Shown piece by piece: positions 4,609-30,935 of a stretch of 64,000 nucleotides of DNA. The notes beneath the pieces are model-generated. The model saw only the letters and a program-made list of their open reading frames with translations. It was not told where the DNA came from and made no database searches. This DNA is from an uncultured Opitutaceae bacterium (lineage in GTDB: Bacteria > Verrucomicrobiota > Verrucomicrobiia > Opitutales > Opitutaceae). The stretch is from the NCBI GenBank assembly GCA_937902925.1, contig CALFNN010000036.1:1-64000 (forward strand). The letters are read 5' to 3'. A program made the position numbers and the translations under genes. Numbering within the stretch: the first letter of the stretch is position 1; the number at the start of each line of letters is the position of its first letter.

Positions 4609-6366
4609 GTGCCCCCGACGCCCCCCGTCTCCGCCGCCGACGATTTTGTCCTCCAGCTTGCCGTCGAGCGCGGGCTGTTGGGCACCGGGCAGGTCGAGGC
4701 TGCGCGATCCGTGGTCGCGGAACACACGGATTTGTCGGTGCCTGCACCGCGTGTTCTCGAGGTGCTGGTGGGGCAGGGGGTCCTGAACGCGCGACGGGTG
4801 GCGGAACTGCTGGCGGGGGAATTCGGAATGCCGATGGCGCCGGATCTCGGCGCCGTCCGCGTGACGGGCGACACGCTGGAACTTGTCCCGCGCGCGGTGG
4901 CCTTGCGCTACCGATTGCTGCCGCTGGCGCGGGGCGCGCACACCCTGCGGGTCGCGATCGCCGATCCGCTCGACACGGATGGCGTCGATGCGCTGGGTCA
5001 CATGCTGAAGCTGGCCATCGAGCCGCTGGTCGCGACGGCCGAGGAAATTACCGCGGCGATCGACCGGTTTTACGGCAAGGACGCCAACTCGATCGACGAA
5101 TTGCTCAACGACCTGGCGGTGGGCGGCGCGGGTGGCGACGCGAGTGCGGTCACGACCGAGGCGAGCGCCGCGGCCAACGTCTCCGACACCGAGACCGACG
5201 CGCCGATCATCAAGCTCGTGCACCAAATCATCCTCGAGGCGATTCAACGGCGGGCGTCGGACATCCACCTCGAGCCGTTGGAAAAACGCTTCCGGGTTCG
5301 CTACCGCATCGACGGCGTGCTCCTCGAGGTGGAGAATCCGCCGAAGCGCCTGCAGCTCTCGATCATCTCGCGGTTGAAGATCATGGCGAACATCTCGATC
5401 GCCGAGAAACGCATCCCGCAGGATGGACGCATTCAGATCGTGATGAACGGCCGGCAACTCGACCTGCGCGTGTCGTCGCTCCCGACGGCGCACGGCGAGA
5501 GCATCGTGATGCGCATCCTCGACAAGGAGGGCCTGCAACTCGGCCTGCCGGAACTGGGGTTCCTCAGCGACGATGCGGCGACGTTTGAAAAGCTGATCAC
5601 GCTGCCCGACGGGATCCTGCTCGTCACCGGGCCGACCGGTTCGGGCAAGACGACGACACTCTACGGTTGCCTGCACTACATCAACAAACCCGACCGCAAG
5701 ATCATCACCGTCGAGGACCCGGTTGAATACCAGCTCAACGGCATCAACCAGGTGCCGGTGCGTGCCGACGTCGGCATGACGTTTGCGTCCGCGCTGCGCG
5801 CCATGCTCCGCCAGGCGCCCAACATCGTGATGGTTGGCGAAATTCGCGACCTCGAGACGGCGGAGATCGCCATCAATGCGTCGCTGACCGGCCACATGGT
5901 TTTTTCGACCCTGCACACCAACGACGCGCCGAGCGCGGTCACGCGGCTGATCGACATCGGGGTGAAACCGTTTCTCGTCTCGACCTCGCTGCGGGCGACG
6001 ATGGCGCAGCGGCTGGTGCGTAAAATCTGCGCCAAATGCAAGCGTCCCTGCATTCCGACGCCGCAGGAATTGCGGGCCTTGAACATCAATCCCGCGCAGG
6101 CCGCAACGGCGTCGTTTGCCAGTGGGGAGGGCTGCGCGGAGTGCAACGCGACGGGTTACCGGGGGCGCATGGGCATCTTCGAGATCTTCGTCGTCAACGA
6201 GGAACTCCAGCGCATGATCTACGAGCACGCCGGCTCCGCGGCATTGCGCGACAAGGCGCGGGCGCTGGGCATGCGGACGATGCGGGAAGACGGGGCGCGG
6301 AAAGTCACCGCTGGTTTGACCACCATCGAGGAAGTCGTCTCCATCACGGTTGGCGACGCGAGCTAA
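4609..6366 (+). CDS. pilB: PilB/GspE-family assembly ATPase (copy 1)
   Basis: Cytoplasmic hexameric ATPase that drives pilin or pseudopilin polymerisation in type IV pili or type II secretion. The 585-residue protein has an N-terminal MshEN-type domain (about 1-150), then the secretion-ATPase core: Walker [11 protein letters not shown] from residue 341, Walker B around [12 protein letters not shown], a His box LSTLHTNDA-type segment, and a zinc tetracysteine of the C-x2-C ... C-x2-C form (CAKC, CAEC). The start is GTG at MPPTPPVSA, 27 bases after rho. It opens a tight block PilB-PilT-PilB-PilC. Whether this copy serves pili or secretion cannot be told from sequence alone. Confidence 0.9.
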
Positions 6367-6384
6367 CTTCAACCCACGAACACC

Positions 6385-7467
6385 ATGAGCTACGAAATGA
6401 ACGACCTCCTCGACTTGATGGTCGATCAAGGCGCGTCGGACCTTCACCTCCAGGTCGGTCAGCCCCCGACGCTGCGCCTCAGCGGCAGCATGACGCCGAT
6501 CGACGGCCCGGCGCTGACGCCGGGCGACACGGAGAAGTTGATGCAGTCGATCACGCCGGACGCCCATATCAGCAATGTGAAGCTCAACGGCGGCGCCGAC
6601 TTCGGCTTCGCGTTTGGCGAGAAGGCGCGTTTCCGCGTGTCCGTGCTGAAGTCGAAGACGAACTACGGCATGGTCCTGCGCCAGATTCCCTACAAAATGT
6701 TCGGTCTGCGCGACATTGGCCTGCCCGACAAGATTCGCGAGCTGCTCTACCGGCCGCGCGGATTGTTTCTCGTCACCGGGCCGACCGGCTCCGGCAAGTC
6801 GACGACCCTGGCGTCGATGGTCAATTACATCAACGAGTCCCGCGACGGACACATCATCACCATCGAGGATCCGATCGAATACTATCACGCCCACAAGCGG
6901 TGCGTGGTCACGCAACGTGAGGTGCATGTCGACGTGCCAAGTTTTTCCGAGGCGATCCGCCGCGCGCTCCGGCAGGATCCGGACGTGATCCTCGTCGGCG
7001 AAATGCGCGACCTCGAGACGATCGAAGCCGCCATCAGTGCGGCCGAGACCGGCCATCTCGTCTTCGGCACGCTCCACACGAACAGCGCGGCCAAGACCGT
7101 CGACCGCATCGTCGATGCGTTTCCGGCGAACATGAAGGACATGATCCGGACGCAGCTTTCGTCCTCGCTCATCGCGGTCGTTTCCCAGGTGCTCTGCAAA
7201 AAGATCGGCGGCGGGCGCATCGCGGGCTACGAGATCATGGTCAACACGACCTCGATCGGCTCCCTGATCCGCGAGAACAAGACGTTCCGCATCTCCTCCG
7301 ACATCCAGACCGGTGCGAACCTCGGCATGATCACGATGGACACCCACCTGATGAGCCTGGTGAACCGCGAACTCGTGGCGCCGGACGAGGCGCTGGAAAA
7401 GGCGCAGGACCCGAACATCATGCGCGAAAAGTTCCTGGCGGCGGGCATGAAGCTGCGCGAGGTGTGA
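6385..7467 (+). CDS. pilT: Twitching motility retraction ATPase PilT
   Basis: PilT is the hexameric ATPase that depolymerises type IV pili for twitching and DNA uptake. The 360 residues match the family length. The N-terminus has the PAS-like start with DLHL and the RLSG segment. Walker [11 protein letters not shown] begins at residue 132, Walker B is in [12 protein letters not shown], and the [13 protein letters not shown] box is intact. PilT lacks the zinc tetracysteine that the flanking PilB-like proteins have, which separates it from them. It lies 18 bases after the first PilB-like gene and 19 bases before the second, indicating one operon. A PilT argues that at least part of this block builds retractable pili rather than only a secretion pseudopilus. 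Confidence 0.93.
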
Positions 7468-7486
7468 GCGGCGGCGCAGCCGTCAC

Positions 7487-9178
7487 ATGTTCTCCAGCCA
7501 CAGTCCCGCGATTTACGAATTCCTGCGCGACCAGCGCATCGTCGGGCAGTCGCAACTCGACGAGCTCAACGAGGAGCACAAGGCCACCGGCAAGCCGCTG
7601 GCCGACGTCGTCATCGACCTGGGCATCGTCGACAAGGGCGCGCTTTTGCGGCAAATCGCCGATCATCTCGGCTACGAATTCGTCGCGGAGCTGCCCGGGC
7701 AGTTTCCCGGCGACGCCATCGCGGCGGTCACCGGCAAGCTCGCCCGCAACTACGGGGTGATGCCGATCCATGCCGACGACCAGCAGATCGAGCTGCTGGT
7801 CACCGACCCGTTCAGCACGCAGGCGGTGGACGACCTCACCTTTGCCCTCGGGCGGAGCGTGCGGTTGTTTTTCGCCGATCCGGACAAGGTCGAGGCGCAG
7901 ATCAAGCAGCACTATGGGGAGGACGACGAGACGATCGACGACCTGCTGCGCGAGATCAGCACGGGGGATCTCGCCGCCGGCGCCACCGAATTGTCGGAGC
8001 GCGATATCGAATCGCTGGCCGAGCAGACGCCGATCATCCGTTTCGTCAACCTCGTGATCGGCCAGGCGATCCGGGACAAGGCGAGCGACATCCACTTCGA
8101 GCCGTTCGAGCAGGAGTTCAAGATCCGCTACCGGATCGACGGCGCGCTCTACGAAATGGCCCCGCCGCCGCGGTCGCTGGCGCTGCCGATCATCTCGCGC
8201 GTCAAAGTCCTGGCCAGCCTCAACATCGCCGAGCGCCGTGTGCCGCAGGACGGGCGCATCAAGATCACCGTCGGCGGCCGGACCGTCGATCTGCGCGTCT
8301 CCACGCTTCCGACGCAGTTCGGCGAAAGCGTCGTGCTCCGCGTGCTCGACCAGTCGACGGTCCAGTTGGACATCGCGCAACTCGGGATGCCCGGGGATGT
8401 GTTCGACGGCGTGCAGGAGATCATCCGCCGGCCCAACGGGATTTTCGTCGTCACGGGGCCAACCGGCTCGGGGAAGACCACGACGCTCTACAGCGGCCTG
8501 CGGATCATCAACACTGCCGACCTCAAACTCCTGACCGCGGAGGATCCGGTCGAGTATGAGATCGAGGGCATCATGCAGGTGCCGGTGAACCCGCTCGTGG
8601 GGCTGACGTTCGCCGCGGCGCTGCGGTCGTTCCTGCGCCAGGATCCCGACGTGATCATGGTCGGGGAAATCCGCGACCTCGAGACCGCGCAGATCGCCAT
8701 CCAGGCTTCGCTGACGGGGCATCTCGTGCTTTCGACGCTTCACACCAACGATGCCGCCGGGGCCGTCACGCGCCTGATCGACATGGGCGTGGAGCCGTTT
8801 CTCATCGCGTCGACCCTCGAAGCGGTGCTGGCCCAGCGGCTCGTCCGCCGCGTCTGCGCCCACTGCAAGACTTCCTACGTGCCGCCGGCGGAGTTGCTCG
8901 GACAACTCGGGATCGCGCGGGAAAGTGTCGGCGACCGGCAGTTTTCCTACGGCCGCGGCTGCCCGAGTTGCACGCAAACGGGCTACCGCGGCAGACTCGG
9001 GATCTACGAATGGCTGCGCATGACGGAAGCGGTGCGGGATCTGGTCAGCCAGCGCGCACCGACGCTGCTGATCCGGCAAAAAGCGCTGGAGCAGGGCATG
9101 CGGACGCTGCGCGACGACGGGTTGCGGGCGATCTTCGACGGCCAGACGACGGTCGAGGAAATCATCAAATACACCTGA
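7487..9178 (+). CDS. pilB: PilB/GspE-family assembly ATPase (copy 2)
   Basis: A second assembly ATPase of 563 residues: an N-terminal MshEN-like domain (residues about 10-150), Walker [11 protein letters not shown] from residue 324, Walker [24 protein letters not shown], and a zinc tetracysteine (CAHC ... CPSC). It is clearly homologous to the gene at 4609-6366 but diverged across its whole length, so it is an old paralogue and not a recent copy. Its stop lies 2 bases before the start of the PilC-like gene, so this copy is the better candidate for partnering that inner-membrane platform. Confidence 0.9.
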
Positions 9179-9180
9179 CC

Positions 9181-10371
9181 ATGGCGAAACTCACTGGCCC
9201 CTCTGCGGCCGTGGCGGCAAAACCGGTGTCGTTGGCCGGCAAGGGGGCGGCGCGGACCGCGGCTGCGTTGTCGATGGCGGCAGCGGGCGGGGCGAAAAAA
9301 CGCCGGCGGCCGATTGTCATCGGACGGGCGATCAATGCGAAGGGGCTGGCGGTTTTCACGCGCCAGCTCGCCACGCTCGTCAAGGCCGGCATGCCCATCC
9401 TCCGCAGTCTCGAGGTGCTGGCGCGCCAGGAAAAGCGCCCGGCCTTCAAGGCGGTGGTCGAGAACATCGCCGACACGATCCGCTCGGGCGGAAATTTTTC
9501 GGACGGCCTGGCCGCGAGCGAAAAAGTCTTCGACCGGCTCTACGTCAACATGGTCCGCGCCGGCGAGGCGGGCGGAGTCCTCGACACGGTGCTCGAGCGA
9601 CTCGCCGTGTTCATGGAGAAGGCGCAGCGGATCAAGGGCAAGGTGAAGTCGGCGATGATCTATCCAGTCATCATCGTCTGTGTCGCGACCGCCATCGTGT
9701 CGGTGCTGATGGTTTTTGTCGTGCCGACGTTCCGGAATATTTTTCGCGACATGCTCAAGGGCCAGCCGCTGCCGGCCCTCACCGAGGATCTGCTCACGGT
9801 CAGCAATGTCCTCAAGGATCACTACCTTTACGTTGTGGGCGGGCTCCCCGCCGCCTACGTGGCGTTCCGGGTTTTTCGCCGGACTCGGACGGGCGCGCGA
9901 ACGGTCGACTGGCTGATCATTCACTTTCCGGTCGTGGGGGAGCTTTTCCTGAAGGCGGCGATCGCGCGGTTTACGCGAACCTTCGGCACGTTGCTGGCGA
10001 GCGGAGTGCCGATCCTGCAGGCCCTCGTGATCACCCGCGACACGAGCGGCAATGTTCATATCGCGAACGCGATCAACGTGGTCCACGACCGCGTGAAGGA
10101 AGGCGACAATGTCGCGCAGCCGCTCGAGTCCACGCACGTTTTCCCGGGCATGGTCACCAGCATGATCGAGGTGGGCGAGGAAACGGGTGCGCTGCCCGAC
10201 ATGCTCACGCGCATCGCCGACAACTACGAGGAGGAGGTCGACACGGCGGTCGCCGGGCTCACGTCGATCATCGAGCCGGTGATGATCGTTTTCATGGCGG
10301 TGGTGGTCGGCACGATCGTGATCGCGCTGTTTCTGCCGATGGTGAGCATCATCCAGCACCTCCAGACCTGA
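9181..10371 (+). CDS. pilC: Type IV pilus / type II secretion inner-membrane platform protein
   Basis: Polytopic platform protein that couples the assembly ATPase to pilin polymerisation. The 396 residues contain two GspF/PilC repeats: the first with FTRQLATLVKAGMPILRSLE, the second with FTRTFGTLLASGVPILQAL. Each ends in hydrophobic helices, with membrane segments near SAMIYPVIIVCVATAIV and MIVFMAVVVGTIVIALF. The first 45 residues are Ala/Lys-rich and precede the conserved domain. The ATG directly follows the stop of the second PilB-like gene, so translation is probably coupled. The gene ends 4 bases from the convergent YhaM-like gene. Confidence 0.92.
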   Translation: MAKLTGPSAAVAAKPVSLAGKGAARTAAALSMAAAGGAKKRRRPIVIGRAINAKGLAVFTRQLATLVKAGMPILRSLEVLARQEKRPAFKAVVENIADTIRSGGNFSDGLAASEKVFDRLYVNMVRAGEAGGVLDTVLERLAVFMEKAQRIKGKVKSAMIYPVIIVCVATAIVSVLMVFVVPTFRNIFRDMLKGQPLPALTEDLLTVSNVLKDHYLYVVGGLPAAYVAFRVFRRTRTGARTVDWLIIHFPVVGELFLKAAIARFTRTFGTLLASGVPILQALVITRDTSGNVHIANAINVVHDRVKEGDNVAQPLESTHVFPGMVTSMIEVGEETGALPDMLTRIADNYEEEVDTAVAGLTSIIEPVMIVFMAVVVGTIVIALFLPMVSIIQHLQT

Positions 10372-19813: not shown

Positions 19814-19900
19814 CCAGGCTCCAGGAAAAATCCCAATTAGGAGCGCCGATTTGGTGTTTCGTTTTTGAGATTTCCCCGGAGGTTGGATGTTGGAGCCTGG
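19814..19900. repeat. Inverted repeat in an AT-richer intergenic stretch
   Basis: The gap at 19785-19978 holds a lower-GC stretch bounded by perfect 10-base inverted arms, CCAGGCTCCA at 19814-19823 and TGGAGCCTGG at 19891-19900. The 67 bases between contain T-rich runs unlike coding DNA here. It resembles the dispersed non-coding repeats seen between genes in GC-rich verrucomicrobial genomes, a comparison made from memory. It could also be a long hairpin or terminator after the lipoprotein gene. Confidence 0.5.
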
Positions 19901-19978
19901 TGCTTCGCGACCGCCGGCGCGCCCTTTTCCATTTGCGACGGCGACGGCACTGGCGCTTCATGGGTGCGACCTACCCCG

Positions 19979-20647
19979 ATGTCGCGCGCCTGCCAAGACC
20001 GTCGCCCGCTTGGATTCACCCTCATCGAACTCCTGACGGTGATGGCGATCATCGCGATTCTCGTGAGCATCGGCATCGGCGCGGTGCGCGGCGCCAACCA
20101 GCGCGCGGCCATCGCGCGCGCCAAGGCGGACCTCGCCGGCGTCGCGACCGCCCTTGAGGAATTCAAACGCCACTATGGCGACTACCCGCAGCTCGGCGAG
20201 TTTGCCCATGCCGCGGTCGTGCCGGCCACCGCCAACACGGGACCCGGCCTCGCCACCGCCGAGGCGCGCCTCTTCAACTGTCTCACTGGCGCGTTCGGGC
20301 CCTCGCGCTTCACGACGGACGACCGGCTCAACGGCCCGGACTTTCTCGACGTCGGGAAATTCTCCCTCGACGCGCCGCCCGCCGCCACGTTTCTGGTGCC
20401 GGCCACCAACGCCCCGCGGCCCACCTTCAAGCCCGAGCAAAATGTCAGCCTGCTCGATCCCTGGGGCCACCGCTATCTCTACTACTACAAGAACGCGCGC
20501 TCACCCAACACGTGGCAGGCCGCCGGCTATGTGCTCTACTCCGCCGGCCCCGATGGTGCTCACACCGCACCGCCGGCCACGGGCATTCTTTCCGCGACGC
20601 AGCTCGCCGCCGTCAACAATGCCGACAACCTCTACGCCAACCCCTGA
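19979..20647 (+). CDS. GspG-like major pseudopilin
   Basis: A 222-residue pseudopilin. A short 12-residue leader ends RRPLG, followed by the processed N-terminus FTLIELLTVMAIIAIL with the essential Glu5 (residue 17). The mature part has a long amphipathic helix and a GspG-type C-terminal segment LLDPWGHRYLYYYKNA, the region that binds calcium in type II secretion major pseudopilins. The protein is longer than the usual 140 residues because of inserts in the middle. It heads a run of seven same-strand genes with gaps of 1 to 7 bases or overlaps. No prepilin peptidase or secretin gene is in the window. Confidence 0.85.
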   Translation: MSRACQDRRPLGFTLIELLTVMAIIAILVSIGIGAVRGANQRAAIARAKADLAGVATALEEFKRHYGDYPQLGEFAHAAVVPATANTGPGLATAEARLFNCLTGAFGPSRFTTDDRLNGPDFLDVGKFSLDAPPAATFLVPATNAPRPTFKPEQNVSLLDPWGHRYLYYYKNARSPNTWQAAGYVLYSAGPDGAHTAPPATGILSATQLAAVNNADNLYANP

Positions 20648-20650
20648 CGC

Positions 20651-21421
20651 ATGAACCTGCACCCCGCCGCGCGCGTCTCTCCGCCTCCGGCTCCCGGCTT
20701 TCCGCTCCCTCGCGTTCGCCGTGGCGCCTTCACTCTCGTCGAACTCCTCACCGTGATCGCGATCATCGGCATCCTTGCGGCGATCCTGATTCCGACCACC
20801 GGCTCTGCACGCGCCGCCGCCAACAAGGCAAAAACCCGCGCGCAATTCGCGCAGTGGGCTTCCGCGATCGAGGCGTTCCGCCAGGAATACGGCTACTACC
20901 CGACTTTCGAGACGAACAACAAGGTCAACGGCACGACGGCCTCGTCCACCACCGGCAGCGCGCTGCATCGCTTCTACGACACGCTCGTCGGGACGCGACG
21001 CGACGGCACCGCGCTGCCTGCGGTCCGCACCGGGGCGCAGCCTAGCCCCGCGCCGCCCGAGGCGCAGAACACCCGTCGCATCCAATTCATGTCGTTCACG
21101 GAGGCCGATATCGTGCCCGTCTCGACGACCGATCCGACGCTCACTGCCAAACGCGGGCTCATCCGCGACGCCTTCGACGACACCGACATCGCCGTCCTCG
21201 TCGATCGGAACCTCGACGGCGCGATTCGCAACAACAACACCGATTTCACCGGCGCGCTTCCGACCGTGAGCCCACCCGACAACACGGCCGTCCGCATCGC
21301 CGGCCCCGGCACCGCGGATTTTCCCACGGGAGCGACCGGCGGGGTGCGCGCCGGCGTGATTTTTTACTGCGCGCCGCCCAAGGCCGCGACCAGCGCCGAC
21401 CTTATCATGAGTTGGAAGTGA
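20651..21421 (+). CDS. GspG-like pseudopilin with long Pro/Arg leader
   Basis: A 256-residue pseudopilin. The 26-residue leader is rich in Pro, Arg and Ala and ends RRGA, followed by FTLVELLTVIAIIGIL with Glu5 present. The -1 residue is Ala rather than the canonical Gly. The helix continues into a GspG-like segment FRQEYGYYPTF and then a strand-rich C-terminal domain of unknown type. It lies 3 bases after the preceding pseudopilin. Part of its leader is encoded by a 13-base sequence shared with the next gene's leader. Confidence 0.82.
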   Translation: MNLHPAARVSPPPAPGFPLPRVRRGAFTLVELLTVIAIIGILAAILIPTTGSARAAANKAKTRAQFAQWASAIEAFRQEYGYYPTFETNNKVNGTTASSTTGSALHRFYDTLVGTRRDGTALPAVRTGAQPSPAPPEAQNTRRIQFMSFTEADIVPVSTTDPTLTAKRGLIRDAFDDTDIAVLVDRNLDGAIRNNNTDFTGALPTVSPPDNTAVRIAGPGTADFPTGATGGVRAGVIFYCAPPKAATSADLIMSWK

Positions 21422-21428
21422 CGTCGCC

Positions 21429-22166
21429 GTGCCCGATCCCCGACTTCCAGCTTTCCGCTCCCGACTGCGGCATCCCGCGCGCCGCGCTTTCACCCTGATC
21501 GAACTTCTCGTCGTCATCGGGCTCATCGCGTTGCTCGTCGGCGGCATCGGCATGGCGCTCGGCGGCCGCGGCACCGATGGCGCCGCGCTCGCCGCCGCGC
21601 AGAATACGGTCGCGAGCCTGGTCGGCGCCACGCGGGCGCAGGCCGCGCTGCACCAGACGACCGCGCGGCTTCTCGTCTACGCATCGCAACCGCCCGGTGG
21701 TGATGCGGACAAATACCTCCGTTACCTCCAGGTCGTCCGCCTCGAGGGCGGCAACTGGGTCGCGACCGGCAATGCCGTCACGCTGCCGTCGCCCGTGTGC
21801 GTCGTTCCGCCGTCGCCCGTGCCGACGAATCATCTGCGCAGCGGCGTGACGTGGAACAACAATGGCGCCACCGGTCCGGTGTCGACGCTCGCCCGCGCGA
21901 CCGGTTTCTCCGTGAACGGCCAGCCGACGGCACCATCGGGCCAGGTCTTCGGCGGCTCCGGCGGTGGCATCGTCTATTATCTCGAGTTTGCGGCCGACGG
22001 CACGGTGTCCTCCAACACCTCGGGCAATCCCACGAAGCTCGCCCTGACGACGGCCGTCCTTGCGAACAACGCGCTGCCGCAGTTCAACAACGCGAACGCC
22101 GTTCGCGGCCTGTTCGTGCGCAAGACCGGCGCGGTGTCGATGGTGAGCGATGCGACCGGTTTCTGA
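21429..22166 (+). CDS. Prepilin-like protein, probable Verru_Chthon cassette D type
   Basis: A 245-residue protein starting at GTG. The leader is 20 residues, Pro/Arg-rich, ending ARRA; the mature N-terminus is FTLIELLVVIGLIALLVGGIGMAL with Glu5 at residue 25. The C-terminal domain is Gly/Thr/Ala-rich with predicted strands, like GspH-type minor pseudopilins. The order of this gene and the next three, each with a prepilin-like N-terminus and ending in a ~1000-residue partner, matches what I remember of the TIGRFAM 'Verru_Chthon cassette' of proteins A-D. The cassette letter is assigned by position and needs an HMM search. Confidence 0.72.
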   Translation: MPDPRLPAFRSRLRHPARRAFTLIELLVVIGLIALLVGGIGMALGGRGTDGAALAAAQNTVASLVGATRAQAALHQTTARLLVYASQPPGGDADKYLRYLQVVRLEGGNWVATGNAVTLPSPVCVVPPSPVPTNHLRSGVTWNNNGATGPVSTLARATGFSVNGQPTAPSGQVFGGSGGGIVYYLEFAADGTVSSNTSGNPTKLALTTAVLANNALPQFNNANAVRGLFVRKTGAVSMVSDATGF

Positions 22167-22168
22167 CC

Positions 22169-22828
22169 ATGCATGCCGCACGCGCGTCAATTCGTCCGAA
22201 GGCAGGGCCTGACCTACCTTCAATCCGCGCCTTCTCCCTCCTCGAGGTGGTCGCTGCCGTCGGCATCTTCGCCATCGGCATGGTCGCGGTCCTCGCGCTG
22301 TTGACGCCGGTCACGAAATCCGTCGCGACCGTCTCGGAAGCCGAAGCCGCGGCCCGGGTGGCCGACGCCGTGCTCGCACGCCTCCAAGCCATGCCGTTCA
22401 CGACCGCCGCGGCGCTGATTCAGGATCCCGCTGCCATCCAGAAAACCGACGCGTCCGGCGCCTACAACCCAAACGACGGCACGCATCCCGCAGTCCTGTT
22501 CGCCAAGCCGGATGGCGAACTCGGGATCTACGATGCCACGGCGACCCCGAAGGGCTGGTTCGACTCGTCGGGCGCCCGGTTCGCCGATGCCGACAAATAT
22601 TTTGAGATCGAACTCATCCGCAACGAGACGCTTTCGCCCGCGGCGGCCGATGCCGGCGCCCTGATGCTGGCCTTCAACATGCGCGTTCGCTGGCCGGCAT
22701 TCCTGCCGTCCTCCACCGGCGGCGCCGTGCAGGTGGGGGCCAATCCAGCCACTGGAGCGCAGACCTCGGTCGCGTTCGACCAAAGCAAGAAGTCGGTGCT
22801 TTTCTTCACCGGCTCGATTTCCCGCTGA
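22169..22828 (+). CDS. Prepilin-like protein, probable Verru_Chthon cassette B type
   Basis: A 219-residue protein with a 21-residue leader ending SIRA and a mature N-terminus FSLLEVVAAVGIFAIGMVAV carrying Glu5. This FSLLEV form is typical of GspI-like minor pseudopilins. The body after the helix includes the segment ARLQAMPFTTAAAL. It starts 2 bases after the preceding gene and ends 2 bases before the next, so translation is probably coupled. The ATG used is the first of two nearby ATGs; the downstream one is in another frame. Confidence 0.72.
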   Translation: MHAARASIRPKAGPDLPSIRAFSLLEVVAAVGIFAIGMVAVLALLTPVTKSVATVSEAEAAARVADAVLARLQAMPFTTAAALIQDPAAIQKTDASGAYNPNDGTHPAVLFAKPDGELGIYDATATPKGWFDSSGARFADADKYFEIELIRNETLSPAAADAGALMLAFNMRVRWPAFLPSSTGGAVQVGANPATGAQTSVAFDQSKKSVLFFTGSISR

Positions 22829-22830
22829 CG

Positions 22831-23943
22831 ATGAACTCGGCACACCTCACTCGTCACCGATCCCACCCGCGCGTCCCACGCGCCTTCACTCTCCTCGAAC
22901 TCCTCGTCGCCGCGTCGATCACCGTCGTCATCTCGGGTTTCTTCTTCGCCATCGTCCGCAATGTCGGCACCACCTGGACGCGCGCTTCCGGCCGGCTCGG
23001 GGCCGATGCGCAGGCGCGTCTCGTGCTCGACCAGCTCGCGCTCGATCTGCAAGGCGCGCTTTTCCGCGACGACGGCCACGTGTGGTTCGCGGCCGACATC
23101 CTCGACACCAACGGCAACTCGGGCCTCTGGGTGGCGGCGCAGACACCCAACAACGCCAAGCCCGCCGGCTCCACGTCGCTCGTCCTCAATTCGCCCAGCA
23201 TTGCCGACGCACGCTTCGGCCTCGCGGGCGTGTGGCTGCGGTTCTTCACGACCAGTCGCGGCACCAATACAACCGCGAACCCCGCCACGATTTCCGCGCC
23301 CGTCGCCGTCGGTTACCAAGTCGTCCGTCGCTTCACGGCGACGAATCCGCTCAACCAAAACACAGCCTACCTGCTCCACCGCGCTGAAGTCCGCCCCGGC
23401 GCCGTCTCAAGCCGGCTGGGCGTGCTCGAGTCCGGCTACGATCTCACGGCCGCGGCCTATACGACGGGGGGCGCGAACAACGACGGCTCGTCGACCGGCG
23501 ATCCGCGCAGTGTGCAGGCGCCGGGCACGAATGCGGGCACGCGCAACCTCGACTCCATCATTGCCGACAATGTCGTCGACTTCGGCATCCGCTGCTACGT
23601 GCGCGATGCCACGCAACCGGGCGGGCTCCGCCTGATTTTTCCCGCCAGCGCCGCCGGCGTGCCCGGTGGCACGGCCGCGACGCGACTTCGTTCCTCGCTT
23701 CCATCGAGCGTCCCCGCGGCATCGGGCAATGCCACGTCGCCCTTTCCCGACGTAGTCGACGTGATGATCCGCGTCCTGACCGACGATGGCGCCGAACTCA
23801 TTGCCAACCTGGAAAAATCCCCCGCACAGCCGCCGACGCGCCCGCAAAAATACCTGAACAACGCCGCGTGGTGGTGGGGCGTCGTGCAGGAAAACTCCCG
23901 CGTCTACACCCGTCGCATCGTCCTCCGCGCCCAGCCCCTCTGA
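22831..23943 (+). CDS. Prepilin-like protein, probable Verru_Chthon cassette C type (GspJ-like)
   Basis: A 370-residue protein whose 18-residue basic leader ends VPRA, followed by FTLLELLVAASITVVISGFF with Glu5. The following helix contains ARLVLDQLALDLQGALFRDDG, the typical GspJ-type region. The remainder is strand-rich with Asn/Thr/Gly loops and is roughly twice the usual GspJ length. It overlaps nothing but lies 2 bases from its neighbour upstream and 3 from the one downstream. Its position directly ahead of the GspK-like giant parallels the J-K order of type II secretion operons. Confidence 0.75.
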   Translation: MNSAHLTRHRSHPRVPRAFTLLELLVAASITVVISGFFFAIVRNVGTTWTRASGRLGADAQARLVLDQLALDLQGALFRDDGHVWFAADILDTNGNSGLWVAAQTPNNAKPAGSTSLVLNSPSIADARFGLAGVWLRFFTTSRGTNTTANPATISAPVAVGYQVVRRFTATNPLNQNTAYLLHRAEVRPGAVSSRLGVLESGYDLTAAAYTTGGANNDGSSTGDPRSVQAPGTNAGTRNLDSIIADNVVDFGIRCYVRDATQPGGLRLIFPASAAGVPGGTAATRLRSSLPSSVPAASGNATSPFPDVVDVMIRVLTDDGAELIANLEKSPAQPPTRPQKYLNNAAWWWGVVQENSRVYTRRIVLRAQPL

Positions 23944-23946
23944 GCT

Positions 23947-26900
23947 GTGATTACCCCGTCTCCCGTCACCCGTCACATGCCACCGTCGCGCGAAGCGCGA
24001 AACGGCTTTGCCTTGCTGATCACCCTCACGCTGCTCGCGTTCGTCGTGATCCTGCTCGTCGGGCTTTCGGCCTACACGCGGATCGAGACCGCTGTCGCTG
24101 GCAACACCCAGCGCCAGGCGCAGGCGCGGCAAAACGCGCTGCTCGCCCTCAACGCCGCCGTCGCCCATCTCCAGCGCTACGCCGGTCCCGACCAGCGCGT
24201 CACCGCGACCGCCGAGGCGTTTCCCAACGCCAGCGGCACCCGCTACTACACCGGCGTCTGGGATGCGACGGGCACCGGCCCGACGCCGCTGACCTGGCTC
24301 GTGAGTGGCAACGAGGTGCTCAAGCCCGACGGCACCGGCGATCCGCTCGCCGTGACGCCGGCCGCCGTGGCGGGCTCGACCGTGGAACTCGTGGGCAAGA
24401 ACACGAGCGGCACGGCGAGCGACGTCGTTGCGCCGCTGGTCGCGATCAAGAGCTACGGCGTCCCGGGCCAGTTCGCGAACGACAACGCGACGACCGGCGG
24501 CACGACCCTCGGGCGTTACGCGTGGTGGGTGGGGGACCAGGGCGTGAAGGCAGCGGTGGCGCTCGCCGACCGGACCGCCGCGGTGAACTACGCGCCGTGG
24601 GACTCCGCGGAGCTCAACAGTCGCATCCGCCAGCAAATCGGACTCGGCGCCGGGCCCGCCGACGCCGCGGGCAACGCCGTCTTCGAGCCGCGCGACACGA
24701 CGACCGGCAACCCGACGAACGCGGCGCTCACGGCCAACACGACCGATTTCGGTCAACTCGCGTTTTTCAACAAGGTTTCCGGCGGCACCGTCGGGCTCGC
24801 GACGCTCCAGCAGAATTACCATGCGTGGTCGCCGAACAACTTCGCCGTCCTCGCGAACACGAAACTCGGCGGCCTGCGGCAGGACCTGTCGCTCAAGCCC
24901 GACCTCCTCGGCAGCGCCTTCGCGGCGTGGGCGGACTACAAGAGCTACATGGAGGATCCAGTCGCGCCGGCGACACCGGCACCGTTGCCCGCATATGGTT
25001 CTGATCCCCTTAGGCGCCGCTACAAAATCACGCCATCGGTGTTTTCGCCTACCGTTGGTGTGTCGCCAGTATTGAACTATTTTTACCTTTTGTTCGGCGT
25101 GAGGAAGCAAACCGGCGCTCAACCATATACGCTCAGTTTGCGCTGGGCCGCGGCATTGTGGAATCCGTATACCAGCGCCTTGGTGCCGGAAGATTTGTGT
25201 CTCGATATTTTCGGTCTCCCCGCATCGGTTACAACCACGGTCGTAAACACTGGCACAGGCGCCACCGCTGACGACATCACGTTTAACTTACGTCAACTTT
25301 ATGGTGAACCGCTAAAGGTCACACTGCCGTGGACGCCGTCTTCCTCTCCCAAGCCGGCGGAAGAATCGTGGCTTCCAGGGCGAGTTTACAATTGGACATA
25401 TCTGCCGGGGGCAACTCTCCAACTGGGCGCCGACAACCCCGGCAGGTTTAATTCACGTGATTTTGGGGCGTTTGGAGACGGGCTCACCGTTACGATTCCA
25501 GCTAGTAACACCGTTAATGGAAACTCGCAGCTTGCGATTCGGATTCCAGTTCCCACCACCCTGAGGCTAGTGCTCAAGCGAGCAAATGGTGATGTGTTGG
25601 CGACCTACACGAGTCCTGCATTTGATGCGGTTCCGCTTTCTGATCATGGCGCGGCCAATGGCACCACATCCCAGTGTGGATTTGATTTTCGGCTTGCGGA
25701 GAGCGTGGACACCGTGGCTACGAACCCAAATGAGTGGCTGACGACGCCGGGGCGCGATCCGCGGAGCGACCAACTGCCACCGGACTCCTTTACGGTTCCG
25801 AACACAACGAGCCCGGTCGATTACAGTAGTGGCAACTTCAACTTGCGAATTCGAGCGCCCGAGCGCCTTCTCGACCGAGATATCACGAATGGGTTGTCCT
25901 ACAACGAGGACGTTCCAATTTTTGAGCTTCCTCGAGCACCGATCCTTTCGCTTGGAGAGCTGCAACATTTTTACGTCGCTGGCGCTCGCCCTTTTTCCGT
26001 CGGTAATTCGTGGGGTGACGGCATCCAAGTCGGTGGCATGAATGTCGGAACGCTGCCGGATCGGTTTTTTTTCTCCGGTCTCGTGGCTGGCATAACCCCG
26101 ATCGCGGCTAACGGTTCGATCGTTATGCCAAATTCACTCCTGACGCCGCTGCCGCGCAACGGTGCGACTGGAGCAACTGTAACGGTTGCTGATTTGCAGG
26201 GCGCGCCCAACCAACAGTCCTCCAAATTTCTCCTCCAGAGTGGGGCGTTTAATTTCAATTCGGCGACGCCGAGCGCTTGGGAAGCCGTTCTGCGCTCCGG
26301 CAGATTTATGTCAGCGGCCAATTTTACCTACCTGAATTCCGACCCGGCCTCTGGCACTGCTTCCGACGATCTTGTTACGCTCACGCCCGATCAAACAGTG
26401 CTGGCGAACCTTCCTACGGCAGCTTTCTTTCGTTTCGCTCAGTCGGCCCAAGAGACTTACAAAGCTGACGACGGATATGTGCAAAGCACGTCGGGTCCGG
26501 AGCAAAATACATTGGATACACCTCTCTTTCGTCGAGGGATGAGGGCGCTGAGCCCTGGCGACATTTCCAGTCTCGCGACGAAACTGGCCGACGCGATCAG
26601 GCTTTATCAAAACGCCAGTGGGCCACTCCGTTCCGTTGAGGAATTTCTCGCTCGGGGCTCGGTCGGCGCCCCGAGCCTGATCGAACAAGCGATTTCGGAC
26701 GCGGGTATCAACGCCAACATTGCCGAGTTCAGCTCCCAATGGCTCACGCAGGCCGACATCATGACGGCGCTCGCGCCGGTGCTCTTTCCGCGGTCGGACA
26801 CGTTTGTTGTCCGGGCCTACGGCGAAGAGGTAAATCCGGCAACGGGCGCCACGGAGGGCAAGGCGTGGTGCGAGGCGACCATCCAGCGGGTGCCGGCGTA

Positions 26901-27018
26901 TTTCGACCCGAGCGATCCCGAGGAGACCGCGCTCGCTTCGCTCAACGCCACCAACCAGGCTGTCGGCCGCCGCTTCAAGATCGTTTCCTTCCGATGGCTC
27001 ACGCACTCCGATATCTGA
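23947..27018 (+). CDS. Giant GspK-like protein, probable Verru_Chthon cassette A type
   Basis: A 1023-residue protein. The leader of 20 residues ends EARNG, followed by FALLITLTLLAFVVILLVGLSAYTRIE. Glu5 is replaced (FALLI), as in GspK, the pseudopilus-tip protein. Residues about 45-70 continue as a helix (NTQRQAQARQNALLALNAAV), and the rest is a large extracytoplasmic region rich in Asn, Thr, Ser and Pro. The C-terminus has a GspK-like turn with SVEEFLARGS and tandem helical segments. From about 24990 to 26690 the coding DNA has markedly lower G+C and more AT-ending codons while the reading frame stays open. It overlaps the next gene by 25 bases. Confidence 0.75.
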   Translation: MITPSPVTRHMPPSREARNGFALLITLTLLAFVVILLVGLSAYTRIETAVAGNTQRQAQARQNALLALNAAVAHLQRYAGPDQRVTATAEAFPNASGTRYYTGVWDATGTGPTPLTWLVSGNEVLKPDGTGDPLAVTPAAVAGSTVELVGKNTSGTASDVVAPLVAIKSYGVPGQFANDNATTGGTTLGRYAWWVGDQGVKAAVALADRTAAVNYAPWDSAELNSRIRQQIGLGAGPADAAGNAVFEPRDTTTGNPTNAALTANTTDFGQLAFFNKVSGGTVGLATLQQNYHAWSPNNFAVLANTKLGGLRQDLSLKPDLLGSAFAAWADYKSYMEDPVAPATPAPLPAYGSDPLRRRYKITPSVFSPTVGVSPVLNYFYLLFGVRKQTGAQPYTLSLRWAAALWNPYTSALVPEDLCLDIFGLPASVTTTVVNTGTGATADDITFNLRQLYGEPLKVTLPWTPSSSPKPAEESWLPGRVYNWTYLPGATLQLGADNPGRFNSRDFGAFGDGLTVTIPASNTVNGNSQLAIRIPVPTTLRLVLKRANGDVLATYTSPAFDAVPLSDHGAANGTTSQCGFDFRLAESVDTVATNPNEWLTTPGRDPRSDQLPPDSFTVPNTTSPVDYSSGNFNLRIRAPERLLDRDITNGLSYNEDVPIFELPRAPILSLGELQHFYVAGARPFSVGNSWGDGIQVGGMNVGTLPDRFFFSGLVAGITPIAANGSIVMPNSLLTPLPRNGATGATVTVADLQGAPNQQSSKFLLQSGAFNFNSATPSAWEAVLRSGRFMSAANFTYLNSDPASGTASDDLVTLTPDQTVLANLPTAAFFRFAQSAQETYKADDGYVQSTSGPEQNTLDTPLFRRGMRALSPGDISSLATKLADAIRLYQNASGPLRSVEEFLARGSVGAPSLIEQAISDAGINANIAEFSSQWLTQADIMTALAPVLFPRSDTFVVRAYGEEVNPATGATEGKAWCEATIQRVPAYFDPSDPEETALASLNATNQAVGRRFKIVSFRWLTHSDI
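24990..26690. other. Internal low-GC mosaic segment of the giant cassette gene
   Basis: Within one uninterrupted reading frame the base composition drops. Hand counts on 60-base lines give 72% at 24601 and 65% at 24901, then 48% at 25081, 55% at 25201, 55% at 25561, 52% at 26281 and 48% at 26461, returning to 67% at 26761. The segment also uses codons rare elsewhere here, such as TTA, AGT and AAT. The edges are gradual by eye, so the coordinates are approximate. No terminal repeats or insertion-sequence features are visible. Confidence 0.8.
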
Positions 27019-27680
27019 CCGCCGCGATCGCGATGGCGACCGCGGTGCATGGCCAACCGCCGCGCGCGCCCGAGCAGGCGTTTCGTTTCACGGTATTCTC
27101 CGCGCGGCCCGTCGAGGGCGTTTCGTTCTCGCCGAATTTGCGCGCGGCGCCGCAGAAGCTCGTGTTTTACCCGACGGCCCGGTCGCCGCGCTACGAGTTT
27201 CGCGGTGCGTTGCCACTGCGGTTCACGGACGCCTCCGGTGCGGTGGTGGCCGAAGCGACGGTCCCGCCGGAGATGCACGACGTGCTTTTGCTGTTCTCCG
27301 CCGTCGAGCCCGTGCCGTCCTCCGGCTTGCGCTATCAGATCGCCGTGCTCGACGATGGAGCCGCGCGACACGGACCAAGCGGACTCGCGATCATCAACCT
27401 GAGCGGCCTCGCGCTCGCCGGGACGGTCGGGCGGGCGGACGTGGTGCTCAAAAGCGGGCTCAACCCGACGCTGCAGGTCAGCCGCACGGCGAAGATCATG
27501 CTGCGGACGACGTTCAAGGGCCGGAGCTATCAGTCTTACGCCGGCGAACTCGAGATGAAGGCCGCCGAGCGCGCGCTGCTGATTCTGTTTCCGCCCTTCT
27601 ACAAGGGCTCGCTCGAGGTCCAGTCGCGTCTGCTGATCGACGAGCCGCCGCTGCCGCCCGTCCCGGCCAACGCGCGTTGA
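26994..27680 (+). CDS. Exported protein of unknown function closing the pseudopilin run
   Basis: A 228-residue protein with a probable signal peptide (MAHALRYLTAAIAMATAVHG then QPP). The mature part is strand-rich, with segments such as LVFYPTARSPRYEFRG and LPLRFTDASGAVVAE, and a late hydrophobic stretch LLILFPPFYKG that is too short to be a confident membrane anchor. I do not recognise a family. The start overlaps the end of the giant gene by 25 bases, suggesting it belongs to the same operon and acts with the pseudopilin-like proteins. An alternative ATG lies 39 bases downstream, but it would shorten the signal peptide. Confidence 0.65.
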   Translation: MAHALRYLTAAIAMATAVHGQPPRAPEQAFRFTVFSARPVEGVSFSPNLRAAPQKLVFYPTARSPRYEFRGALPLRFTDASGAVVAEATVPPEMHDVLLLFSAVEPVPSSGLRYQIAVLDDGAARHGPSGLAIINLSGLALAGTVGRADVVLKSGLNPTLQVSRTAKIMLRTTFKGRSYQSYAGELEMKAAERALLILFPPFYKGSLEVQSRLLIDEPPLPPVPANAR

Positions 27681-27733
27681 TCCGCGTGCATCCATTTCAC
27701 GTTCACTCCGTCAGGCATCGAATTCACCCCATC

Positions 27734-29377
27734 ATGCTGAAGAAACTTGCTGTTCCCGTCCTGCTGCTCGGTTTGGGTTGCGCCGCGGTCCTGCCGCGCG
27801 CCGTGGCCGCGGAGGCGCCGACCCGCGCCGCCGCGCTCGACACGATGAAGCGCGCGACGACGTTCATGGTCGACAAGGTCAGCTACAAGGGCGGCTACGT
27901 CTGGTCGTATCTCCCGGATTTCTCGCGGCAATGGGGCGAGATGGAAGCGCGCCGCACGATGATCTGGATGCAGGCGCCCGGCACGTCCGAGATGGGCCAG
28001 ATTTATCTCGATGCCTACCACGTGACTGGCGACGAGTTTTACTACCAGGCCGCCGAGCAGGTCGCCAGCGCGGTGATCTGGGCGCAGTTGCCCTGCGGCG
28101 GCTGGAACTACATCGCCGACTTCGCGGGCGAGCATTCGTTGCGCGACTGGTATGACACCGTCGGCAAGAACGGCTGGCGGCTCGAGGAGTTTCTCCACTA
28201 CTACGGCAACGCGACGTTCGACGACTCGGTGAGCTCGCTGGCCGCGCAGTTTCTCCTGCGGATGTATGTCGAGAAACGCGACCCGAAGTTCAAGCCGGCG
28301 CTCGACAAGGCGATCCAGTTCGTCCTCGACAGCCAGTATCCCATCGGCGCGTGGCCGCAGCGCTATCCGCTGATGTATGAATACTCGGATCATGGGCTGC
28401 CGGACTACACGTCGTTCCTGACGTTCAACGACGACGTCATCGCGGAGAACATCGATTTTCTGCTCCAGTGCTACCAAGTGCTCGGGGAAAAGCGCGTGCT
28501 CGACCCGATCCTCCGCGGCATGAACTCGTTCCTCGTCACGCAGCAGGGCGCGCCGCAGGCGGGCTGGGCGCTGCAATACACGACCGATCTGAAGCCGGCC
28601 GGGGCGCGCACCTACGAGCCGACGGCGATGGTGACGCATACGACGGCGGCGAACATCGAGAACCTCCTCAAATTCTACCGGCTGACGGGCGAGACGAAAT
28701 TCCTCGCGCGGATTCCCGAGGCGATCGACTGGCTGGAGTCGGTGCATCTCTCGGCGGACGTGCTCAAGAACGGCAACGGTCGCGGCGAATATCCCACGTT
28801 CCTCGAGGTTGGCACCAACAAGCCGCTCTATGTCCATCGGACGGGCTCCAACGTGGTGAATGGCTACTACTACGTGGACTACAATCCGAAGAACACGATC
28901 GGCCACTACTCCTCGTTCCGCAGCATCGACGTGGCGGGCCTCCGCCAGCGTTATGCGGCGGCGAAGGCGATGTCGCCCGAGGAGGCGACGAAAGGTTCGC
29001 CGCTGCGGCCGGGCGCGGGGCTGATCGACCTGCCGCGGGTCGTGACCCGAGCGGGTGGAGCGGGATTTTTCGGCGGGGGCGGTGGCGGCCGGGGCGGCCC
29101 GGGCGGTCGCGGTGGAAACACCGGCGACCGGATCGCCCAACTCATTGCCTCGCTCAACGCCGACGGCTACTGGCCGACGCCGCTGCGCTCGACGAGTCAT
29201 CCCTACAAGGGCGACGGTTCGAAGGAAGTGACGCCCGGCGATTATTCGCATGCCCAGGTCGGCGACGACACCGACACGTCACCCTACACGGATCCGAATC
29301 CCGCGATGGGCATCTCGACCGCAGCCTACATGCGGAACATGGCGACGCTGCTGGAATTCCTGGATCGGGCGAAATAG
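27734..29377 (+). CDS. Exported pectate lyase, polysaccharide lyase family 10 type
   Basis: A 547-residue secreted protein with a signal peptide ending around AVAAEA. The body matches the PL10 pectic-acid lyase pattern: an alpha/alpha toroid with GGWNYIADFAGEHSLRDWYD, GAWPQRYPL, and DYTSFLTFNDDVIAENI segments. Family members cleave polygalacturonate by beta-elimination with a calcium and Arg/Asp-based mechanism. Between about residues 441 and 462 there is a run of Gly and Arg (GGGGGGRGGPGGRGG) that interrupts the domain before the C-terminal segment. The start was chosen at MLKKLAV because it gives the signal peptide. It is convergent with the GH28 gene, which points to joint pectin degradation. 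Confidence 0.85.
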   Translation: MLKKLAVPVLLLGLGCAAVLPRAVAAEAPTRAAALDTMKRATTFMVDKVSYKGGYVWSYLPDFSRQWGEMEARRTMIWMQAPGTSEMGQIYLDAYHVTGDEFYYQAAEQVASAVIWAQLPCGGWNYIADFAGEHSLRDWYDTVGKNGWRLEEFLHYYGNATFDDSVSSLAAQFLLRMYVEKRDPKFKPALDKAIQFVLDSQYPIGAWPQRYPLMYEYSDHGLPDYTSFLTFNDDVIAENIDFLLQCYQVLGEKRVLDPILRGMNSFLVTQQGAPQAGWALQYTTDLKPAGARTYEPTAMVTHTTAANIENLLKFYRLTGETKFLARIPEAIDWLESVHLSADVLKNGNGRGEYPTFLEVGTNKPLYVHRTGSNVVNGYYYVDYNPKNTIGHYSSFRSIDVAGLRQRYAAAKAMSPEEATKGSPLRPGAGLIDLPRVVTRAGGAGFFGGGGGGRGGPGGRGGNTGDRIAQLIASLNADGYWPTPLRSTSHPYKGDGSKEVTPGDYSHAQVGDDTDTSPYTDPNPAMGISTAAYMRNMATLLEFLDRAK

Positions 29378-29446: not shown

Positions 29447-30877
29447 CTACCGCACGACGATCGCCTTGTCGCGATCGGGATGAGCGGCCTCGCCGGCGAA
29501 GTTGGGATAGGTGAGTTCGGTCACGTCCTCGGCCTCGAGGGCGTGGCTGAAATAGTCCGGGATGTTTTTGCCCCAGGCGGCGCGGCAGCTCGCGAGGACG
29601 ACCCGGTCGGCGTGCCGGATGCTGAAAGCGGGATTACCGTGCTCCTCGAGCCCCGGCACGGCGGTCGTCGGGCGGTTGTCCCAGAGGCCGCCGCGGTATT
29701 TGGTCCAGCGGTCGAGGGTGACATCGACCTCCTTGAGCTTCACGTCGCGAATGCGGCTCTGCGTCGAGCCGCTGACGCGCACGCTGTTCTCCGCGCGGCC
29801 CCTGACGTTGACGATGCGGACGTCGCTCAGGGTGCCGACCTTGGTCTCCGGCGTGCGTGGGATCGCGGTGAGCGAGATGGCCTCGCCTCGGCCCCACCAC
29901 GGATCGGAAAAATACCGCGAGGTGAACGTGATGTCGCGAAACTCGATGTTGGACACGTTGCCCTCGTCGCGAAGCTGGAGGCAGAGCCCGCGGCAGCCGG
30001 TCGCGATCGAGCAGCGCTCGAAGCGGACGTCGCTGATGTCCTGGGTCGTCTCGGTGCCGATCTTCAGGCCGGAGTCCTGCGTCTCCAGCACACAGTCTTT
30101 CACCCGGATGTTGGAGGATGGCCCATGCGAAGCGCCCTGGCGGGTGGTCTTGATGACGATGGCGTCGTCGCCGCAGACAATGTGGCAGTTCTTGATCTCG
30201 AGGTCGCGGCAGTGGTCGGGGTCGATGCCGTCGCAGTTGGGCACATCGAGCTGGTTGTGAATCTTGATGCCCTCGACGAGCGTGTGCTCGCAACCGAGCA
30301 GGTGGAGCGTCCAGCTTGGCGCCTGGCGGAATGTGAGGTCGCGAATCTCGAGATCCTTGCATCCGGTGAGAACGACGAGGCGGGGGCGGAAGTTCTTCGG
30401 GCGCCACCATTCGTCCTGGGCATCGAAGTGATCCATGAACTCGGGCGAACGGCCATTGATCGAACCGGTGCCAGTGAGGCGGAGCCCGTGCGCGGCATTG
30501 GCCGTGAGCGCGGCACGCCCGGAGAATTGGGCCGCTTCGGTGCTGACGAGCAGCTCGGCGTCGTCGGCGAGGTGAAACTCGATGCCGCCCTTCAACTCGA
30601 GCGCGCCGATGAGATAGTGCTTGCCGCCGCGCACGAGCACCTGGGCGCCGCTCCCGGCCGCCGCGGCCTCGTCGATCGCGCGCTGGATCGCGGCGGTGTC
30701 GAGGGTCGTGCCATCGCCGACGGCGCCGTAGTCGCGGATGTCGAAAACGCGGCGCGAAGGACTGCCGGAGTCGGCGGCGCGGAGTAGCGGCCGCAGCGCC
30801 GGACCGAGCGCGGCGGCGGCGGCGAACTTGACGCCGGCGCGGAGGAGTTCGCGGCGGGTGAGGCGGGGGGATTTCAT
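29447..30877 (-). CDS. Tat-exported polygalacturonase-like glycoside hydrolase (GH28)
   Basis: A 476-residue parallel beta-helix protein. The N-terminus carries a twin-arginine signal (TRRELLRAG, Arg8-Arg9) followed by a hydrophobic Ala-rich stretch. The domain starts FDIRDYGAVGDGTTLDT, and GH28 active-site motifs are visible: NCDGIDPDH, CGDDAI, and a histidine segment ASHGPSSN. The usual R-I-K motif appears as SGLKIGTE, lacking the Arg, so exo- rather than endo-specificity or a different uronide is possible. The ATG at MKSPRL was chosen because it places the twin Arg at positions 8-9. It is convergent with the pectate lyase and divergent by position from the tRNA. Confidence 0.85.
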   Translation of the reverse strand: MKSPRLTRRELLRAGVKFAAAAALGPALRPLLRAADSGSPSRRVFDIRDYGAVGDGTTLDTAAIQRAIDEAAAAGSGAQVLVRGGKHYLIGALELKGGIEFHLADDAELLVSTEAAQFSGRAALTANAAHGLRLTGTGSINGRSPEFMDHFDAQDEWWRPKNFRPRLVVLTGCKDLEIRDLTFRQAPSWTLHLLGCEHTLVEGIKIHNQLDVPNCDGIDPDHCRDLEIKNCHIVCGDDAIVIKTTRQGASHGPSSNIRVKDCVLETQDSGLKIGTETTQDISDVRFERCSIATGCRGLCLQLRDEGNVSNIEFRDITFTSRYFSDPWWGRGEAISLTAIPRTPETKVGTLSDVRIVNVRGRAENSVRVSGSTQSRIRDVKLKEVDVTLDRWTKYRGGLWDNRPTTAVPGLEEHGNPAFSIRHADRVVLASCRAAWGKNIPDYFSHALEAEDVTELTYPNFAGEAAHPDRDKAIVVR

Positions 30878-30935
30878 GGCGGACGGCACCCCGGGGCGGA
30901 CGAAAAAACCGCGCAGGGGTGTCGCGCGGTGAAAC

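Follow-up and report, generated by a model that had tools for sequence, protein, structure and literature searches.

The window, a stretch of 64,000 nucleotides of contig CALFNN010000036.1 from an uncultured Opitutaceae bacterium, contains at 23947-27018 (+) a single open frame of 1023 codons with a GTG start, which probably encodes a giant GspK-like minor pseudopilin. It is the last and largest gene of a pseudopilin set of six. The five further genes, identified by profile matches, are located on the same strand at 19865-20647, 20651-21421, 21429-22166, 22211-22828, and 22831-23943, and are ordered as two GspG-like genes followed by genes resembling the Verru_Chthon cassette proteins D, B, and C. 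These three resemblances all stay below the model cut-offs, with 27.2 (70), 31.0 (51.4), and 23.3 (256.5) bits, respectively, and our literature search did not find any paper on a "Verru_Chthon cassette". Of the 10 related loci tested, eight have all six genes grouped and in this order, and an acetyl-CoA ligase gene is found upstream in five of these eight. One of the two other loci is cut by the end of its contig, and the other one is distant.

The giant protein itself is matched by the model NF037980 (T2SS_GspK) with 28.7 bits across residues 19-91 only, and by TIGR02600 (Verru_Chthon cassette protein A) with 17.0 bits across residues 20-78. Because both scores are far below the respective cut-offs of 130 and 332.3, we term the gene GspK-like and do not file it as a member of either family. 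Like Verru_Chthon cassette protein A, it is a pseudopilin of great length whose neighbours resemble the proteins B, C, and D, but only the N-terminus matches and the neighbours do not reach their cut-offs either. The mature N-terminus of the protein, FALLI after Gly20, has no Glu at position +5, the absence of which is a trait of GspK. The structure model of the whole protein is weak (mean pLDDT 50.6). Compared with 1000 chains it matched best 3ci0_K, which is GspK (Z 8.1, rmsd 2.3 over 106 residues, just above the tool's meaningful level; next best Z 5.7). Because this match spans model residues 49-1020 and therefore both protein ends, the N- and C-terminal ends, judged from this weak model, probably form a split GspK-like core into which the middle is inserted. 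The protein would share with GspK the split pilin core, the large insert, the missing Glu, and the last place in the gene set, but it has 1023 residues compared to 280 in the solved chain, its insert includes a beta-rich domain, and the cut-off of the NCBIfam model is not reached. A sequence search of solved structures with the window protein gave no match at E<=1, and Foldseek gave none at E<=0.001 for the whole model or for the model of the beta-rich domain. Such a GspK-like protein would probably cap a type IV pilus or a type II secretion-like filament.

The gene can be divided into an N part (codons 1-336, 23947-24954 (+)) with the prepilin leader, the pilin helix, and the first half of the core, a low-GC block (codons 337-902, 24955-26652 (+)), and a C part (codons 903-1023, 26653-27018 (+)), to which the fold match assigns the second half of the core. 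The low-GC block comprises the beta-rich insert, called the exchanged domain in the following (codons 337-652, 24955-25902 (+)), and a second half (codons 656-902, 25912-26652 (+)). Residues 375-585 are modelled as beta strands, and the exchanged domain modelled alone reached a pLDDT of 68.0 and a pTM of 0.74. This model weakly resembles Ig-like sandwiches (best Z 6.1), and Ig-type entries (lamin, GH2 domains) and the archaellum proteins FlaF/FlaG scored Z values of about 4-6, which is below the telling level. The label "Ig-like" is a lead only.

Several observations concern the surroundings of the gene. Profile matches place PilB-like, PilT-like, GspE/PilB-like, and PilC/GspF-like genes at 4609-10371 (+). 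In this pilus motor set two PilB/GspE-like ATPases flank PilT and are followed by the PilC/GspF-like gene, and the three-ATPase domain order recurs in G142, G114, G108, and G246. A reading frame at 26817-27695 (-) lies opposite the 3' end of the giant gene and extends beyond it. It has no Pfam match, but tblastn matches of 31-54% occupy the corresponding position in eight of the 10 related loci and in 5 longer stretches. The frame is in part the antisense of the giant gene itself and may in part be a convergent gene. Beside the pseudopilin genes there are also genes for a pectate lyase (27677-29377 (+)) and for a GH28 protein (29447-30889 (-)). None of the 10 related loci matched either gene, and several of these loci stop close to this point. 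The genomes G034, G047, and G054 contain 22, 15, and 15 matching pieces of the giant gene, respectively, which suggests several giant pseudopilin genes in each of them.

Composition of the gene

The initial annotation had described a low-GC middle inside one open frame, and this middle is real. In 300-base windows the GC content along the gene changes from 0.68-0.72 to 0.55-0.58 and back to 0.64-0.67, so that the middle is indeed low, although not as low as the 48-55% given at first. Maximum-likelihood change points of GC3 were found at codons 336 and 902 (nucleotides 24955 and 26653) with a gain in log-likelihood of 66, close to the cut points of 345 and 915 that had been proposed. GC3 amounts to 0.905, 0.576, and 0.835 in codons 1-336, 337-902, and 903-1023. 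Fourfold sites have 93, 63, and 87% G+C in residues 1-345, 346-915, and 916-1023, and the composition change therefore affects synonymous sites and is not just a consequence of the amino acid sequence. The host itself is GC-rich at third positions, with GC3 values of 0.83-0.86 in most neighbouring genes and 0.890 in rpoB, compared to 0.576 in the block. In the genome baseline, for which 376,761 bases or about 6% of the genome were sampled (mean 0.659, sd 0.023), only 2 of 1177 windows of 1.5 kb are below 0.58 GC, and both are in the low-GC block. This baseline is plain GC; GC3 of the longest ORFs was discarded because this rule picks antisense frames in a GC-rich genome. The block had also been called rich in Asn, Thr, and Pro. 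This applies to Pro (8.8 versus 6.4% in the N part), and Ser is enriched as well (8.8 versus 4.6%), but Asn (5.6 versus 5.8%) and Thr (8.9 versus 10.4%) are no higher than in the N part.

For comparison, 54 of 75 loci (L002-L076) were kept as orthologues, which score at least 400 bits, reach residue 1000, and start by residue 60; the 21 loci left out are partial or weak. Among the 54 there is no other species from the genus of the window. Many of the relatives' genomes are fragmented drafts, and the named records are mostly metagenome assemblies. The GC3 drop of 0.310 in the window gene is the largest among the 55 orthologues (mean of the other 54 0.050, sd 0.065). A mild mid-gene dip is present in 42 of the 54, and a drop of at least 0.14 in five.

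The absence of insertion-sequence traits, noted already in the initial annotation, agrees with our data. An insertion element is not supported, given the unbroken frame, the alignment of the block to the orthologues, and the lack of any transposase model match to the gene. The draft genome consists of 105 contigs, which would leave room for a chimeric assembly. However, the frame of 1023 codons runs on across both junctions, the block can be aligned to orthologues along its whole length, and the same kind of replacement is found in independent genomes, and we regard an assembly artefact as extremely improbable.

Phylogeny of the gene segments

In the tree of residues 337-670 (54 orthologues) the window gene groups with L032 and L038 with an SH-aLRT support of 100. 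The three represent three genera (g1, g60, and g7), and the genome of L032 is a single contig. This clade, which was picked after the tree had been seen, is rejected in AU tests on 33 of the 55 rows by residues 16-336 (p = 0.041), 671-902 (p = 0.0065), and 903-1023 (p = 1e-5), and also by rpoB (p-AU 0.011). For rpoB, 30 of the 55 genomes were searched, 27 matched, and 26 were used, G067 being omitted for its split gene. The pair of the window and L032 is rejected by the C part (p = 0.0037) and by rpoB (p = 0.0049), but not by the N part (p = 0.169) or residues 671-902 (p = 0.341). Along the gene, the similarity rank of L032 among the 54 relatives changes from 46 at residues 281-330 to 1 at 341-390, and from 1 (tied) at 841-890 to 39 at 901-950, and both switches are close to the changes in composition. 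In the intervening stretch the order of the relatives varies, and residues 681-810 are led by others, mainly L031, L035, L002, and L003. As outliers among all 1485 pairs, window-L032 (z 2.1, rank 50) and window-L038 (z 1.4, rank 144) are modest. The nearest relative by flanks is also the nearest by domain in 19 of 55 cases, which is no worse than the control of N against C part (13 of 55) and thus uninformative.

To some degree, all segment trees conflict with each other and with rpoB, and that of the domain does so most. When the best other topology is imposed on a segment, the loss amounts to 1155 log units in the domain (314 columns), compared to 263 in the N part (307), 184 in the second half (236), and 129 in the C part (126). 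Across 26 genomes, distances correlate with 0.57 between N and C part and 0.51 between rpoB and N part, compared to 0.17 between N part and domain and 0.18 between rpoB and domain; the latter two are still above 480 and 490 of 500 permutations, respectively. Segment GC3 correlates with the rpoB GC3 of the host with 0.45 for the N part, 0.26 for the domain, 0.04 for the second half, and 0.09 for the C part, and domain GC3 is therefore not clearly decoupled from the host beyond the other segments.

The second half of the block behaves differently in the tree. In the tree of residues 656-902 the window is sister to L003 (SH-aLRT 96), the row closest to it in the rpoB tree as well. In this segment the window has a long branch (0.48 versus a median of 0.30) but in the N part a short one (0.27 versus 0.43), a pattern that would suit an import from an unsampled lineage. 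However, because the second half is equally AT-rich but not displaced in the tree, an import of it would rest on composition, and because of the grouping with L003 the low-GC block is not one demonstrated import. The initial proposal that the exposed part had been replaced by recombination is thus upheld for codons 337 to about 652-670, by the tree conflict and AU tests, the rank switches, and the replicate cases in relatives described below, and not for residues 656-902. Of the two signs that together would indicate an old and stable composition, a low-GC middle in relatives and a congruent tree, the first is present in 5 of the 54, but the trees conflict at residues 337-670. Replacement of the domain from codon 337 to about 652-670 in the window gene by recombination is well supported.

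Two other readings of these data have to be considered. The composition could have arisen in place, through relaxed selection on codon use or local limits on base composition, with a GC3 drift that is strongest in this lineage. The mild dip in 42 of the orthologues and the AT-rich but undisplaced residues 656-902 would fit such a drift. However, the drop in the window gene is about 4 sd over the mean of the others, it begins within a few codons, and its left edge coincides with the switch of nearest relatives. In addition, drift leaves both the tree conflict and the saturation of synonymous sites in relatives unexplained, and we therefore consider it unlikely. The direction of transfer could also be reversed, so that L032 and L038 would have received the domain from the lineage of the window, whose copy would be native. 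The tree conflict alone gives no direction. It is the window copy, though, that is out of line with its host in GC3, both against the neighbouring genes and against rpoB, which makes this direction very unlikely.

Domain exchange in relatives

The window case is not unique, and other members of the family have swapped this domain on more than one occasion. Between close relatives, synonymous divergence is raised in the domain alone, up to saturation, in a trio of species of genus g19 (L004, L041, and L048), and is raised over a longer stretch between L034 and L046. The DNA identity of L048 to L004 falls to about 45-69% over about 0.9 kb inside the gene and then returns to 83-92%. The pS of the L048 domain is 0.80 against L004 and 0.73 against L041, compared to 0.25-0.29 in the other three segments. 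Between L004 and L041 the rise is smaller (0.58 versus 0.12-0.36 elsewhere). L144 and L143, which are of the same species as L041 and L048, could be compared over 12 kb, and 40 of the 48 scored 250-base windows have identities of 80-98%. The longest valley, four adjacent windows with 54-72%, lies in the exchanged domain, and shorter dips are located near the 3' ends of the smaller pseudopilin genes and of the giant gene. Downstream of the giant gene, L142, which is from the same species as L004, is divergent as well. The smaller pseudopilin genes have identity dips of 60-76% at their 3' ends (L143, about 5366-6037; L142, near 3750-4000), and exposed parts of other g19 pilins may be exchanged too.

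Between L034 and L046, dS over N part, residues 337-652, residues 656-902, and C part is 0.66, 1.92, 1.98, and 0.62. The raised stretch has approximately the extent of the low-GC block of the window, and the GC3 of L046 is 0.86, 0.65, and 0.83. For nine near pairs within the three groups L049-L051, L058-L061, and L073/L074, dS in the domain does not exceed about 1.2 times the value of the N part. Of 27 chosen pairs, eight have breaks at residues 331-364 and 635-654, including three pairs from the g19 trio; five have breaks at 331-361 and 858-929, and 14 elsewhere. The recurrent breaks adjoin conserved stretches: on the left residues 328-338 (WADYKSYMEDP, 24928-24960 (+)), and on the right residues 651-675 (SYNEDVPIFELPRAPILSLGELQHF, 25897-25971 (+)) with a mean pairwise identity of 0.77. 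We refer to these as anchors. Low GC as a general mark of exchange was not upheld, given the little GC difference in the g19 trio and the weak correlations of segment GC3 with rpoB GC3.

The least conserved residues of the window gene, 426-575, are within the exchanged domain, as would be expected if an exposed domain evolved fast by diversifying selection without any recombination. However, dN/dS is 0.05-0.39 in all but one defined value from 14 pairs, the exception being 0.62 on a dS of 0.02. Because dN/dS is low and dS itself is raised in the domain, the valley represents replacement and not accelerated change. In addition, GC3 does not respond to selection at the amino acid level. Positive selection alone was therefore rejected, and we give diversifying selection without recombination hardly any credence. 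With dN/dS low in every segment measured in the relatives, the suggested likeness to surface antigen loci is, as far as selection is concerned, unproven.

Proposed route and role of the exchange

We favour, with a probability of roughly 0.7, the explanation that the exposed beta-rich domain was replaced via homologous recombination from a lower-GC lineage, and that such replacements recur in the family. The two protein ends would form the conserved pilin core, and the long insert would be the exposed part, with the beta-rich domain (about 337-652) as its first half. Homologous recombination between the conserved flanking stretches would swap the domain, the incoming variant would come from another, lower-GC lineage of the family, and the imported DNA would not yet have drifted to the composition of the host. 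Uptake of DNA from related bacteria, followed by recombination in the conserved anchors, would be the simplest route, and natural transformation is suspected. ComEC- and PilT-like genes, as predicted from sequence, are present, and the ComEC-type Competence domain was found in 5 of the 6 genomes searched, including that of the window. A silent-copy donor was not found: at E<=10 the own genome (95% complete) contains no second copy of the low-GC block, with only the gene itself matching, and conversion from a silent copy is therefore unlikely.

In the antigenic variation of Neisseria pilE, the exposed part of the pilin is replaced by recombination while the conserved N-terminus is kept. The window gene is similar in both respects. 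However, no silent copy corresponding to pilS was found in the genome, the related domain is found in other genera, and the protein is a large minor pseudopilin and not the major pilin. Pilin alleles are also exchanged between strains, as is the case for PilA of Pseudomonas or Vibrio. Here too, exposed pilin sequence is swapped horizontally at a fixed locus, but it is an internal domain within a conserved gene, and the exchange takes place between species and genera. Minor pseudopilins of the GspK type are generally regarded as conserved proteins that initiate assembly. The titles and abstract openings that we searched contain no report of a domain exchange in a GspK-like protein. Pseudopilin genes travel in Verrucomicrobiota as whole genes, according to one publication (PMC13274419).

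The domain would be the exposed head of the protein, and its change could alter adhesion, substrate contact, or phage attachment; a donor lineage and selection for a changed contact surface are what we infer. More speculatively, and with considerable doubt, the pilus tip of this family could have a changeable head: a beta-rich recognition domain, mounted on a conserved GspK-like base, would be traded between the anchors via the DNA uptake of its own pilus. If this were true, species and genera would be trading a cassette between two conserved anchor stretches.

The composition break, which is visible by eye, marks an evolutionary event, at least in the first half of the block. It represents a clear case of recombination between species that is confined to one domain, in the little-studied Verrucomicrobiota. 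The recurrent exchange of one domain points to a part of the filament that meets the outside world, and the natural domain variants could be used to find its ligand or phage. Together, this suggests a filament tip that is renewed by gene exchange.
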